From an uncultured bacterium (lineage in GTDB: Bacteria; Verrucomicrobiota; Kiritimatiellia; RFP12; UBA1067), in the NCBI GenBank assembly GCA_902803135.1, contig CADCPA010000180.1:1-37574 (forward strand): a DNA stretch of 37,574 nt, read 5' to 3'. The notes under the pieces were generated by a model. That model was given only the letters and a program-made list of their open reading frames with translations, was not told the origin of the DNA and ran no database searches. Shown in pieces: positions 3,001 through 31,492 of the stretch. The position numbers and the translations under genes are program-made. How positions within the stretch are numbered: the stretch's first letter is position 1; each line of letters begins with the position of its first letter.

Positions 3001-4245
3001 ATAGACGACCTCGCCGTCCGCCCGCGTCGCCCAGCCCGCAAAATCGTAGCCCGCGCGCGTCAGGACGTTCGCCGGCAGCAGCTTCGACACGTCGTAGGTC
3101 TGGGCCGCGGACGGCATCGAGCCCGTGCCGCCGTTCGCGTCGAAGGCGACCGTGTACGCATTCGGCGACCACTTCGCATAGAGCGTCACCGTGCCGCCCG
3201 CAATCGGGGTGAGATTCTTGACCGTCTGTCCGTTCGTGAACACGACCGCTCCGCCCGGGGCCGTCGCCCAGCCGATAAAGGCATAGCCGGTCTTCGTAAA
3301 GGTGTTCGCCGGCAGCAGCCGGCCTTCGCCATAGACGTAGTCGGCCTTCGCCATCGTCCCCGTGCCGCCGTTCGCCTCGAAGGCGACCGTGTACGTATTC
3401 GACGACCACTTCGCGTAGAGCGTGACCGTGCCGTCGGCCGTCGCGGTCAGGTTCGTCACCACGGCCTTGTCGGCATACACGACGTCGTAGCTCGCGTGGC
3501 TCGCCCAGCCCAGAAACGCATGGCCCGCCCACGTGAAGGCGTTCGCCGTCAGCGCCCGGGGCTCGTCGTAGACGAACGCCTCGTCGGCCATCGCGCCCGC
3601 ACCGCCGTTCGCGTTGAAGACGACGGAATACGCGTTCGGCGTCCACTGCGCGTAGAGCGTCTTGCCCGCGGTCTCGGCGAACGTCGTCGCCGCCGTGACG
3701 GCCGTGCCGCCCGCCGCCGCGGTGAACCAGCCCGTGAACGTATAGCCCGCCCGCGTCGGCACGGGAAGTTCGCCGTAGGGCTGCTTGTAGACGACCGCCT
3801 TCGAGGACGTGGCGGACGTGCCGCCGTTCGCGTCGAAGACGACGGTGAACGAATCCGCCTCGACCACGAGATTCGTCACGAACGTCACGTAGTCGCCCAT
3901 GAACGGAACGGCGGCGCCATTCGCAATCTCGCCGCCGCGCGCCGGCTCAAAGCCCGAATAGCCCTGGCAGTACTGGAACGTCACGCTGCGATAGCCCGGC
4001 TTCAGCGTGGCCGTGATCGACGCCGAATCGACGTTGGAGGGCATGCAGGTCGTGGGTCCGGCGGGCGACAGCGTCTCGACGCTGACCGTCGACGAACCGG
4101 ACACCACGTAGGAGACGTCGACCGTCGAAACCGCATCCGCCAGCTGCGCGAGCAGGGGGAGGTCGACGTTGAGCGTGTTGGCCGCCGGAGACGCCCCCGC
4201 GACGCCCCATGCAACCAGACCCAGCAACCAGATTTTCCTGTTCAT
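1..4245 (-). CDS. Large secreted InlB-repeat surface protein, C-terminus off the window
   Basis: The reading frame opens at ATG 4245 and stays open to the window edge, giving 1415 codons with no stop, so the 3' end is missing. The start is preceded by AAAGGGG about 7 nt upstream. A signal peptide ([18 protein letters not shown]) is followed by a short beta-rich region. Six InlB B-type repeats cover about residues 132-603, each with an ANGG turn, a GYxFxGW core and a TLYAKW end. A jelly-roll, carbohydrate-binding-like module follows (about 607-781), then a second family of about 78-residue repeats (about 782-1205). The tail has further GYAFAGW-type segments. The role is probably adhesion or glycan binding at the cell surface; no enzymatic motif is visible. 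It follows the C10 protease gene on the same strand, after a hairpin. InlB repeats are well known in surface proteins; the ligand cannot be inferred. Confidence 0.85.
631..1902 (-). repeat. Second tandem protein-repeat family in the same gene, 78-residue period
   Basis: Three clear units start at 1332, 1098 and 864, exactly 234 bp (78 codons) apart. Each opens with a strand like [13 protein letters not shown], carries VTVVYTAxAGYE near the middle and closes with a VPxAPxKK linker. Two more diverged copies precede them (about 1340-1902). They look like small beta-sandwich or stalk modules. I do not recognise the family; it is distinct from the InlB repeats upstream. Confidence 0.75.
2437..3852 (-). 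repeat. Six tandem InlB B-type repeats (about 78-81 residues each)
   Basis: Units begin with a strand like [10 protein letters not shown], pass through LPANxFTxxGYxFxGWAT and end in TVTLYAKW. The first and last units are more divergent than the middle four. Two neighbouring units share a 62-bp stretch (2747-2808 and 2990-3051) that differs at only two bases, which indicates recent duplication or gene conversion between units. Confidence 0.9.
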
Positions 4246-9211: not shown

Positions 9212-12200
9212 ATGCAGACGAATCCCACAGACGCACCCGACGCGCTTCCCGCGCCCGACTTCAACTACCCCGCCGAGCTCCCCGTCTCGTCCCACCGCGA
9301 CGAGATCCTCGCCGCCCTCGCCCGCCATCCTGTCGTGATCGTCTGCGGCGACACCGGCAGCGGCAAGACGACGCAGCTGCCGAAAATGGCGCTCGAGCAC
9401 CTGCTCGCGGCCGCCTCGGCCCGGCCCGTCGGCCCGGCCGCACGCCTCCGCGTCGCCTGCACCCAGCCCCGCCGCCTGGCCGCGGTCACGATGGCCGCCC
9501 GCGTCGCCCACGAGCTGAAGTCGCCCGTCGGCGGCCTGGTCGGCTACCAGCACCGGTTCGGACGCCGGCTCTCCCGCGACACGCGCATCAAGTTCATGAC
9601 GGACGGCGTGCTCCTCGCCGAGACCCGCACCGACCCCCTCCTGCGCGCCTACGACGTCGTCATCGTCGACGAAGCCCACGAGCGCTCCCTCAACGTCGAC
9701 TTCCTGCTCGGCATCCTCACGCGCATCCTCGCCCGCCGCCGCGATTTGAAAGTCGTCGTCTCGTCCGCCACGCTCGATGTCGTCCGTTTTTCAGAGTATT
9801 TCAACAAGGCGCCCGTCATTTCGGTGCCCGGTCGCCTCTTCCCGATCGACATCCGGTACCGTCCGCCCCGCGAAGACGACGAACGCGACCTGCCGCGCGA
9901 CGTCGCCGCGGCCGTCGCCACCCTCCCCCCGCGCGACGACGTGCTCGTGTTCCTCCCCGGCGAGCGCGACATCCGCGAGACGGCCGACGCCCTCGCCCGC
10001 CTCCGCGGCTGCGACGAGATCATCCCCCTCCTGGCCTCGCTCCCCGCCGCCGAGCAGCAGCGCGCCTTTCGCCTCTCGGACCGCCGCCGCATCATCCTCG
10101 CGACGAACGTCGCCGAAACCTCTGTCACCATCCCCGGCATCCGCTGCGTCATCGACTCGGGTCTCGCCCGCATCTCGCGCTACGTGCACCGCACGCAGGT
10201 CCAGCGCCTCCAGATCGAGCCGATCTCCCAGGCCTCCGCCCGCCAGCGCGCCGGCCGGTGCGGACGCCTCGGCCCCGGCATCTGCATCCGCCTCTATTCG
10301 GAGGACGACTTCAACGCCCGCGACCCCTACACGCCGCCTGAAATCCTGCGCGCCTCCCTCGCCGGCGTCATCCTCACCCTGCTCGACCTCCGCCTCGGCG
10401 ACGTCGAACGCTTCCCCTTCCTCGATCCACCCCGGCCCGTCCTGCTCCACGAGGGCCTGCGCGAACTCCTCGAGCTGAACGCGATCGCCCACAGGCCGCG
10501 GAACGTTGAAAGCGGGAAGTTGAAGGTTGAAGGTTCCGCCGCGGAGACGCGCGTCGTTCTGACGGACATCGGCCGCAAGCTGGCCCGCATCCCCCTGGAG
10601 CCGCGCCTCGCACGCATGCTGCTCGCCGCAGCCGACAACGCGATTCTCCCCACGGCCCTTCCGATCGTCGCCGCCCTCGCGTGCGACGATCCGCGGCGAC
10701 GCCCCGTCGACGCCCGCGAGAAGGCCGCCCAGGCCCACGCGCCGTTCCGCGTGCCGGGGTCGGACTTCCTGTCCACCCGCAAGCTCTGGCTCTGGTGGCA
10801 GAGCCAAACCGCCGGCCTGTCCCAGGCCAAGGCCCGCGCGCTGGCGAAGAAGACCTACCTGTCCTATCCGAAGATGCGCGAATGGCGCGATCTCGTCAAC
10901 CAGCTGACCGACCTCGCCACACGTCTGGGCCTGAGCTTCGCCGAAACGGTTCTGCCTGCGCGGAAAAATGCGCCGAAGGGCACGATTCCGCAGAACCGGC
11001 CGGACGGCGAACTCGATCCCGACGCCTCGGCACGCCTCCATCGGGCGCTGTTGACCGGCCTGCTCGGACGCATCGGCCTCTACGACCCCGAAGCGCGCAA
11101 CTACCGCGGCGCCCATGGCCTGCGCTTCTACCTCCATCCGTCCTCCGTGCTCATGAAGAAGGCCAAGGCGCCCGACGCGGCCCCGACCGACGTCGTCAAC
11201 GCCCATGCGAAACCCAAGGCCCCGGCGGCGAAGCCGAGCTGTCCGCCCTGGGTCATGGCCGGCGAACTCGTGGATACCGCCCGCCTCTTCGCCCGCAACG
11301 CCGCGGTCCTCGACCCGACCTGGATCGAACCCGTCGCCGGCACGCTCGCCAAACACACCTACCACTCGCCCGAGTGGGACCCCCAGACCGGTTTCGTGCG
11401 CGCCACCGAGCAGGTGACGCTTTACGGACTCGTCATCGTGCCCGCGCGCCGCTGCGACTTCAGCCGCGTCAACCTCCCCCTTGCCCGCGAGCTCTTCATC
11501 CGGCACGCGCTCGTCCTCGGCGATTTTCCCCATCCGCCGTCCGAGATGCGGCCGAACCTCCGGTTGCTCGACGCCCTCCGCCGCCGCGCGGAAAAGGCCC
11601 GCCGCCCCGAATTCTTCGACGTCGAACGCCTCGTCGCCCATTTCGCCGCCGTGCTGCCGCCCGACGTCGCCTCGATACCGGCCTTGCGCAAGTGGCTCGC
11701 CCGCGGCGACTGCCGCGCCTTCCAGCTCCGGAAAGCCGACTGGTGGCCGCACGAAAGCGCCGGCGAGACGGACTTCCCCGACGCCATTCGCATCGGCGGC
11801 GTGAAGATGTCCCTTTCCTATCGCAATACGCCCGAGGATCCGGAGACGGACGGCATCACCTGCACCGTGCGCAGATCCGACGCCGCCGCCCTCCGTCTCT
11901 GGCGGGCGGACTGGCTCGTGCCCGGCGCCCTGCCCGAGAAGCTCGCCTACCTGATTTCCGCCCTGCCCTCGGCCCAGCGGCGCGTGCTGACCCCGATCGG
12001 CGACACGGTGAGCGGACTCCTCGCCCATCTGAAGCCCGGCGCCGAACCGCTCGAAGATGCCGTACGCCACGCGATTCTCGCCCACTGGGGCTTCCACATC
12101 CCCGCCGACGCCTGGGCGCAGCTGAAGCTGCCGCCGCACCTGCGCGTCCGTTTCCGCGTGCGCGACGACGCGACCGGGCGCGTCCTCGCCTGCTCCCGCG

Positions 12201-13171
12201 ACCTGGAAACCGTCCTTGCGGCAGCCGGCGGGACCGCCGACGGTACGGCCGCCGCGCCGAAACGCCACGTCATCGCCCTCACGCCGCAGACAATCGATCC
12301 GCAGAACCCGGCGACCTTCTGGCCGTTCGGCACACTTCCGGAAAAGACGGCGGACGCGGAGGCGGGCTGGAAGCTCGAACACTTCCCCGCCCTCCACGAC
12401 GAGGGTCCGGACAAGGGCGTTTCGCTGCGCCTCTACGGCGATGCCGCCACGGCGGAGCTCGAGCAGGCCGCCGGTCTGACGCGCCTCTATCTCCTCGCGC
12501 TCGGCGAACGTGCCCGCATCCCCTTCCTGCGGAAAAAGCTTTCGGTCGGCGCACAGCTCTATCTCAAAACGCTGAACTACGACAGCGTGCAGATTTCCGC
12601 GGACATTCTCGCCGGCGCCGTACGCGAAGCCTATGTGCGCAATCAGCCGCCCGTGCGCGACGCCGCCACGTTCCGCCGGCGCCTGGAGGAGAACCGCAAC
12701 ACGCTCGCGGCCGCCCAGTTCGAAATGGGCGAAATCCTCGGCGCCGCCTATGCCGCCGCCGCCCGGATCGACGCGCGCCTCGACGAAGGCGGCCTCCCCG
12801 ACGAGACCGTCGACGCGGTGCGCACCCAGCTCGCCTGGCTCCTCTACCCCGGCTTCCCCAAGAACGTACCGCTCGCCCGCCTCCGCAACTACGCCCGCTA
12901 CCTCCGCGGCGCCGCGCTGCGCCTGGACCGCGCGCGCACGAATCCGGCCGGCGACCGCGCCAAGGAGGCGAAGTTCGCCCCCTACTGGGTTCTTTACACC
13001 GAGGCCGTGCAGGGAAAGTCGAGCGTCAAATTCGCCGCCAGGCCCCTCGCCGAGTTCCGCTGGATGCTCGAGGAGTTCCGCATCTCGCTCTTCGCCCAGG
13101 AACTGCACACCTCCGAGCCGGTCAGCCCAAAGCGCCTCGACGCCAAACTCGCCGAAGCCGCAATCGACTAG
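9212..13171 (+). CDS. hrpA: DEAH-box ATP-dependent RNA helicase HrpA
   Basis: The 1319-residue length matches E. coli HrpA. The helicase core is intact: GDTGSGKTTQLPK at residues 46-58, TQPRRLAA, DEAH at 153-156, SAT at 185-187, NVAETSVTIPG and QRAGRCGR at 345-352. A helicase-associated region and a long C-terminal domain typical of HrpA follow. HrpA is linked to unwinding RNA and rescuing stalled or collided ribosomes. An in-frame ATG at 9137 has a distant GGGGGG, but the 25 codons it would add have atypical codon use, and the promoter falls inside them, so 9212 is preferred. Residues about 430-443 are encoded by a 7-nt-period array absent from the usual family pattern. This is the only plus-strand gene in the window. 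Confidence 0.95.
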   Translation: MQTNPTDAPDALPAPDFNYPAELPVSSHRDEILAALARHPVVIVCGDTGSGKTTQLPKMALEHLLAAASARPVGPAARLRVACTQPRRLAAVTMAARVAHELKSPVGGLVGYQHRFGRRLSRDTRIKFMTDGVLLAETRTDPLLRAYDVVIVDEAHERSLNVDFLLGILTRILARRRDLKVVVSSATLDVVRFSEYFNKAPVISVPGRLFPIDIRYRPPREDDERDLPRDVAAAVATLPPRDDVLVFLPGERDIRETADALARLRGCDEIIPLLASLPAAEQQRAFRLSDRRRIILATNVAETSVTIPGIRCVIDSGLARISRYVHRTQVQRLQIEPISQASARQRAGRCGRLGPGICIRLYSEDDFNARDPYTPPEILRASLAGVILTLLDLRLGDVERFPFLDPPRPVLLHEGLRELLELNAIAHRPRNVESGKLKVEGSAAETRVVLTDIGRKLARIPLEPRLARMLLAAADNAILPTALPIVAALACDDPRRRPVDAREKAAQAHAPFRVPGSDFLSTRKLWLWWQSQTAGLSQAKARALAKKTYLSYPKMREWRDLVNQLTDLATRLGLSFAETVLPARKNAPKGTIPQNRPDGELDPDASARLHRALLTGLLGRIGLYDPEARNYRGAHGLRFYLHPSSVLMKKAKAPDAAPTDVVNAHAKPKAPAAKPSCPPWVMAGELVDTARLFARNAAVLDPTWIEPVAGTLAKHTYHSPEWDPQTGFVRATEQVTLYGLVIVPARRCDFSRVNLPLARELFIRHALVLGDFPHPPSEMRPNLRLLDALRRRAEKARRPEFFDVERLVAHFAAVLPPDVASIPALRKWLARGDCRAFQLRKADWWPHESAGETDFPDAIRIGGVKMSLSYRNTPEDPETDGITCTVRRSDAAALRLWRADWLVPGALPEKLAYLISALPSAQRRVLTPIGDTVSGLLAHLKPGAEPLEDAVRHAILAHWGFHIPADAWAQLKLPPHLRVRFRVRDDATGRVLACSRDLETVLAAAGGTADGTAAAPKRHVIALTPQTIDPQNPATFWPFGTLPEKTADAEAGWKLEHFPALHDEGPDKGVSLRLYGDAATAELEQAAGLTRLYLLALGERARIPFLRKKLSVGAQLYLKTLNYDSVQISADILAGAVREAYVRNQPPVRDAATFRRRLEENRNTLAAAQFEMGEILGAAYAAAARIDARLDEGGLPDETVDAVRTQLAWLLYPGFPKNVPLARLRNYARYLRGAALRLDRARTNPAGDRAKEAKFAPYWVLYTEAVQGKSSVKFAARPLAEFRWMLEEFRISLFAQELHTSEPVSPKRLDAKLAEAAID
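10501..10535. repeat. Heptanucleotide array inside the hrpA coding sequence
   Basis: Five units in exact 7-nt register, with forms such as GAACGTT, GGAAGTT and GAAGGTT (the last twice in a row). The array encodes the linker RNVESGKLKVEGSA between the helicase-associated domain and the conserved LTDIGRKLARIP segment. It keeps the reading frame and resembles the intergenic arrays elsewhere in the window. Confidence 0.7.
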
Positions 13172-13178
13172 GCCCCGT

Positions 13179-13253
13179 CATCCACCATTCACCACAGCCT
13201 ATCCACTATTCACTATTCATATTCACTATTCACTATTACTTATTACTTATTAC
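13179..13253. repeat. Heptanucleotide array after the hrpA stop codon
   Basis: About eleven units keep a 7-nt period with two 6-nt slips. Typical units are CATTCAC, TATTCAC and TTATTAC. The array begins 8 nt after the hrpA stop and ends two bases before the terminator hairpin. It is AT-rich within high-GC surroundings. Confidence 0.8.
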
Positions 13254-13255
13254 CT

Positions 13256-13296
13256 AAAGCAAGGGGTTCGGACCATTTGTCCGAACCCCTTGCTTT
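13256..13296. terminator. Bidirectional terminator hairpin between hrpA and the bS22-like gene
   Basis: A perfect 18-bp stem (AAAGCAAGGGGTTCGGAC and its complement) with a 5-nt loop sits between convergent genes. The stem ends in AAA/TTT on both sides, so it can stop transcripts from either strand, although the U-run is only three bases. Confidence 0.75.
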
Positions 13297-13412: not shown

Positions 13413-13475
13413 TTTGAGATTTGAGTTCGCCGTTCGCGGTTCACACCTTGAACTTTGAACCGTGAACTTTGAACT
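13413..13475. repeat. Heptanucleotide array between hisG and the bS22-like gene, with inverted halves
   Basis: Nine units in one unbroken 7-nt register. The half next to the bS22-like gene is GTTC-rich (for example TCGCGGT) and the half next to hisG is GAAC-rich (for example TTGAACT and GTGAACT). GTTCGCGGTTCA at 13432-13443 pairs with TGAACCGTGAAC at 13456-13467 at 11 of 12 positions, so a hairpin can form. The last unit runs into the hisG stop codon. Confidence 0.8.
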
Positions 13476-14344
13476 TAGAAAATGATTTTGTTGAGCGGCA
13501 GTTCGATGATGCCCGTGGCGCCCGCCGCCTTGAGCACGGGCACGAGTTCGCGCACCTGGCGCTCCTCGACCACGCTCTCGACCGCATACCAGTCGGCATC
13601 GTTGAGCTTGTTGACCGTCGGCGCATGGAGAGCCGGCAGGGCGGCCGTGATCTTCTCGATCTTCTTCGCCGGGGCGTTGAGCTTGATGAGCACGCGCTTC
13701 TGCGCGTCGAGCGCCGCCGTGAGGAGCATTTTGAGCTGCTCGACCTTCGCGCGCTTCGCCTTGTTCTTCATCGCCGCCTTGTTGGCGATCAGACGCGTGG
13801 TGGACGTGAGGATCGTGTCGACGATGCGCAGGTTGTTCGCACGCAGCGAGCTGCCCGTCTCCGTCAGGTCGACGATCGCATCCACGAGCTCCGGCGCCTT
13901 GACTTCCGTCGCGCCCCAGCTGAATTCGACATCGGCCTTCACGCCGTTCTTCTTGAGATAGCGCTTGACGATGCCGAGCGCCTCGGTCGAGATGCGCTTG
14001 CCCTGCAGGTCCTTGACCGTTTTGACCTTCGAGTCGTTTGGAACGGCGAGCACCCAGCGAACCGGGTTGGACGTCGCCTTGGAGTAGTTGAGTTCGCAGA
14101 CGTCCTCGACGTCGGAACCGTTCTCATACACCCAGTCCCAACCGCAGATGCCCGCGTCGAGGAGGCCGAGCTCCACATAGCGGCTCATTTCCTGTGGACG
14201 GAGAAGACGGCACCGAATCTCCTCGTCGTCGATCGTGGGATAGTACGAGCGGGACGAGCATGAAACGTTGAAGCCCGCGCGCTTGAACAGCGCGAAGGTC
14301 GATTCCTGTAAACTGCCCTTGGGAAGGCCGAGAACAATTGCCAT
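13475..14344 (-). CDS. hisG: ATP phosphoribosyltransferase, long form
   Basis: HisG joins ATP and PRPP in the first step of histidine biosynthesis. The 289-residue protein is the long form: a catalytic periplasmic-binding-like part (LGLPKGSLQ at the start, LLDAGICGWDWV, then ISTEALGIVKRYL and IVDLTETGSSLRANNLRIV near the PRPP site) and a C-terminal ACT-like regulatory domain of about 75 residues ending in ATGIIELPLNKIIF. The long form usually works without HisZ and is inhibited by histidine. It has its own promoter and an AGGAAAC site directly before the ATG. No other his gene lies in the window, so the pathway is dispersed here. Confidence 0.95.
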   Translation of the reverse strand: MAIVLGLPKGSLQESTFALFKRAGFNVSCSSRSYYPTIDDEEIRCRLLRPQEMSRYVELGLLDAGICGWDWVYENGSDVEDVCELNYSKATSNPVRWVLAVPNDSKVKTVKDLQGKRISTEALGIVKRYLKKNGVKADVEFSWGATEVKAPELVDAIVDLTETGSSLRANNLRIVDTILTSTTRLIANKAAMKNKAKRAKVEQLKMLLTAALDAQKRVLIKLNAPAKKIEKITAALPALHAPTVNKLNDADWYAVESVVEERQVRELVPVLKAAGATGIIELPLNKIIF

Positions 14345-31393: not shown

Positions 31394-31457
31394 TGTCTTT
31401 TCCTCTCTTCTCTTAAACTCTCTGCAATCGCGACGGGAATCCGACGCCCGCCGATCT

Positions 31458-31492
31458 CCCAACTCACAACTCTCAACTCACAACTCACAACT
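31458..31492. repeat. Heptanucleotide array after the etfQO stop codon
   Basis: Five exact 7-nt units, three of them CACAACT and the others CCCAACT and CTCAACT (plus strand). The array lies directly between the etfQO stop and the leader of the oxidoreductase gene, inside what otherwise looks like one operon. Confidence 0.85.

Follow-up and report, generated by a model that had tools for sequence, protein, structure and literature searches.

Heptameric repeats have been described as over-represented, dispersed and mainly intergenic, and dispersed heptanucleotide repeats are documented in Xanthomonas (GGGAATC), Nostoc (GGGGA(C/T)T) and Calothrix (PMC4692102). In Beggiatoaceae and cyanobacteria, TAACTGA repeats are rare in ORFs and lie there mostly at protein edges (PMC4679880). 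Many bacteria carry an excess of repeats of this unit length. Here we analysed a heptanucleotide array that lies in frame inside a gene of the window (i.e., the whole stretch of 37,574 nucleotides, from a genome designated G000). The product of this gene is HrpA, as supported by an E value of 2e-235 against the solved E. coli HrpA and by the presence of DEAD, Helicase_C, HA2, OB, and DUF3418 domains.

In a register of seven, the array reads GTTGAAA GCGGGAA GTTGAAG GTTGAAG GTT and encodes VESGKLKVEGS; coordinates are given in the table. The array is confirmed as real; when the codons of the surrounding loop were shuffled, the observed period-7 score was reached in 0 of 4000 trials (p<=0.0002). 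A preliminary description of this DNA had placed the array at residues about 430-443 and had pointed out that the gene remains open despite a 7-nt unit, and both statements agree with the present coordinates. Its further statement that hrpA carries "the same" heptanucleotide array as is found elsewhere is true genome-wide and untrue within the window, where the other arrays carry different units.

Features of the window that bear on the hrpA array (positions are those of the window)
Feature	Position	Strand	Basis
hrpA, DEAH-box RNA helicase, 1319 aa, no internal stop, open across the array	9212..13171	+	ORF translation, homology, domains
Extended HrpA loop, residues 426-449, LELNAI to LTDIGRKL, turn joining two strands	10487..10558	+	alignment, predicted structure
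Heptanucleotide array, 4.4 units, residues 432-442	10505..10535	+	sequence, codon shuffling
Degenerate unit GCGGGAA	10512..10518	+	sequence and frame
Perfect period-7 core, 17 nt, GTTGAAGGTTGAAGGTT	10519..10535	+	Tandem Repeats Finder
Period-7 array, TGAATAG/GTAATAA, intergenic, between hrpA and the next gene	13199..13256	units on minus strand	sequence
Period-7 array, TTGAACT, overlaps a gene end	13445..13480		sequence
Period-7 array, CTCACAA, intergenic	31456..31492		sequence

With a period of 7 beyond chance, many sites on both strands and a mainly intergenic family, the hrpA array groups with the dispersed heptanucleotide repeats. It shares with those of Xanthomonas, Nostoc and Calothrix the 7-nt unit, the few copies per array, the many sites on both strands, the mostly intergenic location and the lineage-typical unit; the units themselves are different, however, and here many unit families occur per genome and unrelated units recur in one protein loop (PMC4692102). 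TAACTGA repeats are likewise 7 nt long and mostly intergenic, with stops in one orientation and a few in-ORF cases tolerated in cases where the protein is peripheral (PMC4679880); by contrast, these in-ORF repeats are mostly in hypothetical proteins or at protein ends, whereas the arrays described here occupy linkers in the interior of conserved proteins and have lost their stops through degenerate units. Rickettsia palindromic elements (RPE) are also dispersed repeats found in frame within conserved protein genes, but are palindromes of 105-146 bp with terminal inverted repeats, whereas the arrays found here are direct arrays of 17-60 nt without such structure (PMC2229807). Specifically, the hrpA array is a 31-nt direct array in which no inverted repeat is present, while RPE and MITEs are defined by terminal inverted repeats and a length of ~100-150 bp. 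Borg tandem repeats evolve fast and create disordered protein regions, as these arrays do, but Borg in-ORF units are always divisible by three, while units here are 7 (as in hrpA) or 8 nt and the frame is kept by total length only (PMC9879509). Finally, the constant-size, variable-sequence repeats of Bacillus also combine a fixed period with varying sequence, but have units of 20-21 or 52 nt (PMC8161180). In the literature searched, we found no description of a conserved protein in which a single loop repeatedly carries unrelated non-triplet arrays.

Genome-wide, AAGTTGAAGGTTGAAG (<=2 mismatches) has 47 matches in G000, 25 forward and 22 reverse, vs 14 for a reversed control; as matches overlap inside one array, such counts exceed the number of sites, and the GTTGAAR family occupies about 16 sites besides hrpA, mostly intergenic. 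In 202 kb of G000 (the sampled stretches represent ~6% of this genome), clear enrichment of non-triplet periods was confined to 7 and its double, 14; in 400 kb of G027, a genome of the same family, period 7 dominates the non-triplet periods, together with 14 and some 8, while shuffled DNA yielded almost no arrays with non-triplet periods. Array density was 27-fold (G000) and 20-fold (G027) higher in intergenic than in genic DNA, as judged with a home-made gene caller seeded with hrpA codon usage on genomes that are fragmented MAGs; the hrpA copy is thus an exception.

The array falls at a site where HrpA varies in length. Our HrpA set comprised relatives' genomes as well as named genomes of other phyla as outgroups. 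In 79 HrpA proteins from other phyla, the loop (LELGAI-LTDIGRKL) has 5-16 residues (median 10), and E. coli HrpA is shorter by about 14 residues at this position; the 'Lentisphaerae bacterium RUG632' MAG, the sole record from the right group among the named genomes scanned, has a loop of 5 aa. Most genus-mates have 9 aa, the nearest clade (G010, G012, and G015) 20 aa without a clear array, G000 24 aa and G001 34 aa, and loops of relatives differ in length by whole codons. In a predicted structure of moderate overall confidence (mean pLDDT 68, pTM 0.46), the array lies in an unstructured turn at 432-444 (pLDDT<50), flanked by strands at 425-429 and 446-450.

The preliminary description had allowed that the period could be a coincidence of protein sequence, which would be indicated if all relatives carried the same residues with unrelated codons. 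While the perfect repeat in hrpA is only 17 nt long, the loop alignment revealed the array residues in no relative's HrpA, so that this indication is missing; moreover, the unit is dispersed elsewhere in the genome, and codon shuffling yielded p<=0.0002 not only for the hrpA loop of the window but also for seven other loops. The probability that protein sequence or codon bias explains the period is therefore close to negligible.

These seven loops come from a test of 40 loops at four periods (floor 1/4001), in which a period of 7, 8, 10 or 14 reached p<=0.0002 in the HrpA loops of eight genomes of the family, G000 included; loops of G035 and G061 showed a weak period-14 signal and were left out of the array count. 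The eight array-bearing loops have 16-56 residues. Besides the array in G000, the units are GGGATCG/A (G118), CCGTCCT (G027), CGACGCT/CGACACT (G064), GTTCAAGGGGCCAG (G001), the 8-mers AAGGACAC/G (G137) and AGAACTTC (G018), and a 10-mer (G115). Seven of these eight units, i.e., all except the G115 10-mer, were searched genome-wide, and each is dispersed in its carrier genome, whereas most other genomes have few or no matches. GTTGAAG has 41 matches in G000, 37 in G001, 30 in G118, and 0-1 in G010, G012, and G015, and is also found in other genomes of the family (44 in G132, 26 in G033). The G118 unit has 19 matches at home vs 0 in ten genomes, the G001 unit 20 vs 0-1 elsewhere and the G137 unit 9 vs 0 in eleven genomes; the G027 unit has 189 matches at home, 15 in the sister G064 and 0-3 in others, the G064 unit 20 at home, 11 in G018 and 0-1 in others, and the G018 unit 12 at home, 42 in G137, 5 in G027 and 0 in others. 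When the loop was left out of the tree, well-supported branches still required five or more changes; this is not a count of gains, since three of the changes may represent one gain and two losses. The earlier reading of spread into a tolerant linker is supported by the dispersed unit and by the different-unit arrays in the loops of seven other family members, and proved general, beyond the window's genome. In some lineages, period-7 arrays are accompanied by arrays of period 8 that form dispersed families of their own (L198 in G137, L199 in G018, and L379:6195-6224 in G027). In addition, inverted array pairs, some 15-140 nt apart, are frequent (L296, L297, and the G064 hrpA loop, L187) and could fold into hairpins.

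In hrpA and G027 mutL, the arrays avoid stops that canonical units would bring. Read forward, GTTGAAG contributes a TGA every 21 nt. A canonical GTTGAAG in place of the degenerate hrpA unit GCGGGAA would put a TGA at residue 435, and a further canonical unit at the 3' end of the array would place one at residue 442; in G027 mutL, the third AACTCCT unit is CACTCCT, which yields TCA where the canonical base would yield TAA. This stop avoidance in hrpA and G027 mutL is the expectation under purifying selection on an inserted array. In-frame arrays were also found in linkers of FeoB of G000 (residues 164-171), TonB (61-71 and 123-132) and a B12-radical-SAM protein (116-131 and 461-481) of G027, as well as between the N- and C-terminal domains of G027 MutL (387-396 and 410-431) and at the joint of a KS-KS protein of G027 (369-380, overlapping the domain edge by 3 residues). 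For six proteins with in-frame arrays, random placement (one array per protein) would put all arrays outside Pfam domains in ~1% of cases. An in-frame AACGTTC-type array is common to a GH97-like gene of G061 (L262) and G035 (L306). The G027 mutL linker (L362:13829-13961) contains three different heptanucleotide unit families, which might influence mismatch repair and, in turn, the instability of repeats.

We consider it probable (roughly 0.8) that the hrpA array is a copy of lineage-specific dispersed repeats that spread by copying and are kept between genes and in flexible linkers by selection. Heptanucleotide arrays would be copied to new chromosomal sites, which we infer from their dispersal and lineage-typical units, and purifying selection would then clear nearly all arrays that land in genes, sparing those whose net length is divisible by 3, that are free of in-frame stops and that fall into flexible loops or into linkers between domains. 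One such tolerant site would be the wing loop of HrpA, having received arrays repeatedly within this bacterial family; template switching during repair or replication, or microhomology-mediated repair, would be the plainest candidates for the copying route. The insert is probably near-neutral for HrpA, and insertion probably came first, with length and stops corrected later. The 20-aa loops of the nearest clade count against this explanation, as they indicate that a long loop is possible without a clear array. An alternative in which a single old insertion per clade was inherited vertically and its units were rewritten by conversion with each genome's dispersed arrays is possible, if on balance rather doubtful. 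The loop arrays of G000 and G001 share an ACGTT-AA start, a GTTCCG end and the CGGAGACGCGC flank, with a 7-nt gap in the alignment, and may, judging from these sequences, represent one inherited insertion; the sisters G027 and G064 both have loop arrays, with different units, and an intergenic site with constant position and length but differing units also favours rewriting. On the other hand, the G001 loop aligns nearly as well with other G000 arrays (scores of 8.5-14, vs 15 for the G000 loop array), and G118, G115, G137, and G018 occupy scattered positions in the tree, so that at least five changes are needed. On contig C52, an intergenic array has a AAGCGGGARGTTGAAGGTTG flank in common with hrpA. 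This was considered as flank co-copying and set aside, as the flank on C52 is immediately upstream of a probable start codon on the minus strand, such that the likeness is possibly due to chance.

Copying between sites would be unnecessary if arrays arose by independent local slippage from short seeds, and slippage can indeed make short arrays, with one orthologous site varying by one 7-nt unit; local seeds would, however, yield unrelated units per site, while the units are lineage-private yet common to dozens of sites per genome (e.g., 189 matches in G027 vs 0-3 in most others), and we regard this origin as very unlikely. An active, step-fixed copying process, such as a dedicated repair route or a polymerase that uses a template, could also lay down lineage-specific, drifting arrays whose period stays at 7 or in some cases 8, with flexible linkers (the HrpA wing loop among them) as natural traps that record insertions, but seems unlikely as well. 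Gain or loss of units could also act as a phase-variation switch that turns HrpA off, as one unit added leads to a stop at residue 442 and one removed to a stop at 448. Known contingency loci have much longer arrays than the 2.4 perfect units of hrpA, though, and the degenerate unit reduces slippage, which makes a switch highly improbable. The in-frame arrays show that linker sequence of core proteins (e.g., HrpA, MutL, and FeoB) can come from non-triplet repeats. With private repeats of several lineages, the HrpA loop offers insertions that can be aligned and that have passed a built-in filter (length divisible by three, absence of stops), such that the spread of repeats becomes testable, and its arrays show where proteins tolerate spreading repeats.

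Arrays also turn over at orthologous intergenic sites of a sister genus with dense arrays. At one site, G061 has an array that G063 and G017 lack, and G035 and G062 have other filler there; at a second, arrays differ by one 7-nt unit. In an orthologous array of G035 and G062 (L275:51-91 and L298), place and length are constant and the variable unit positions have changed, as if units had been swapped. A stretch of 1437 bp is 100% identical between L272 (G063) and L295 (G062), genomes that are otherwise divergent, which represents either recent transfer or a cross-binned contig. Within the window, a perfect 18-bp inverted repeat, AAAGCAAGGGGTTCGGAC-N5-GTCCGAACCCCTTGCTTT (13256-13296), directly follows the intergenic array downstream of hrpA and resembles a bidirectional terminator separating convergent genes, and a coding repeat at 3115-3661 has 2.3 copies of a 237-bp unit that are 75% alike.
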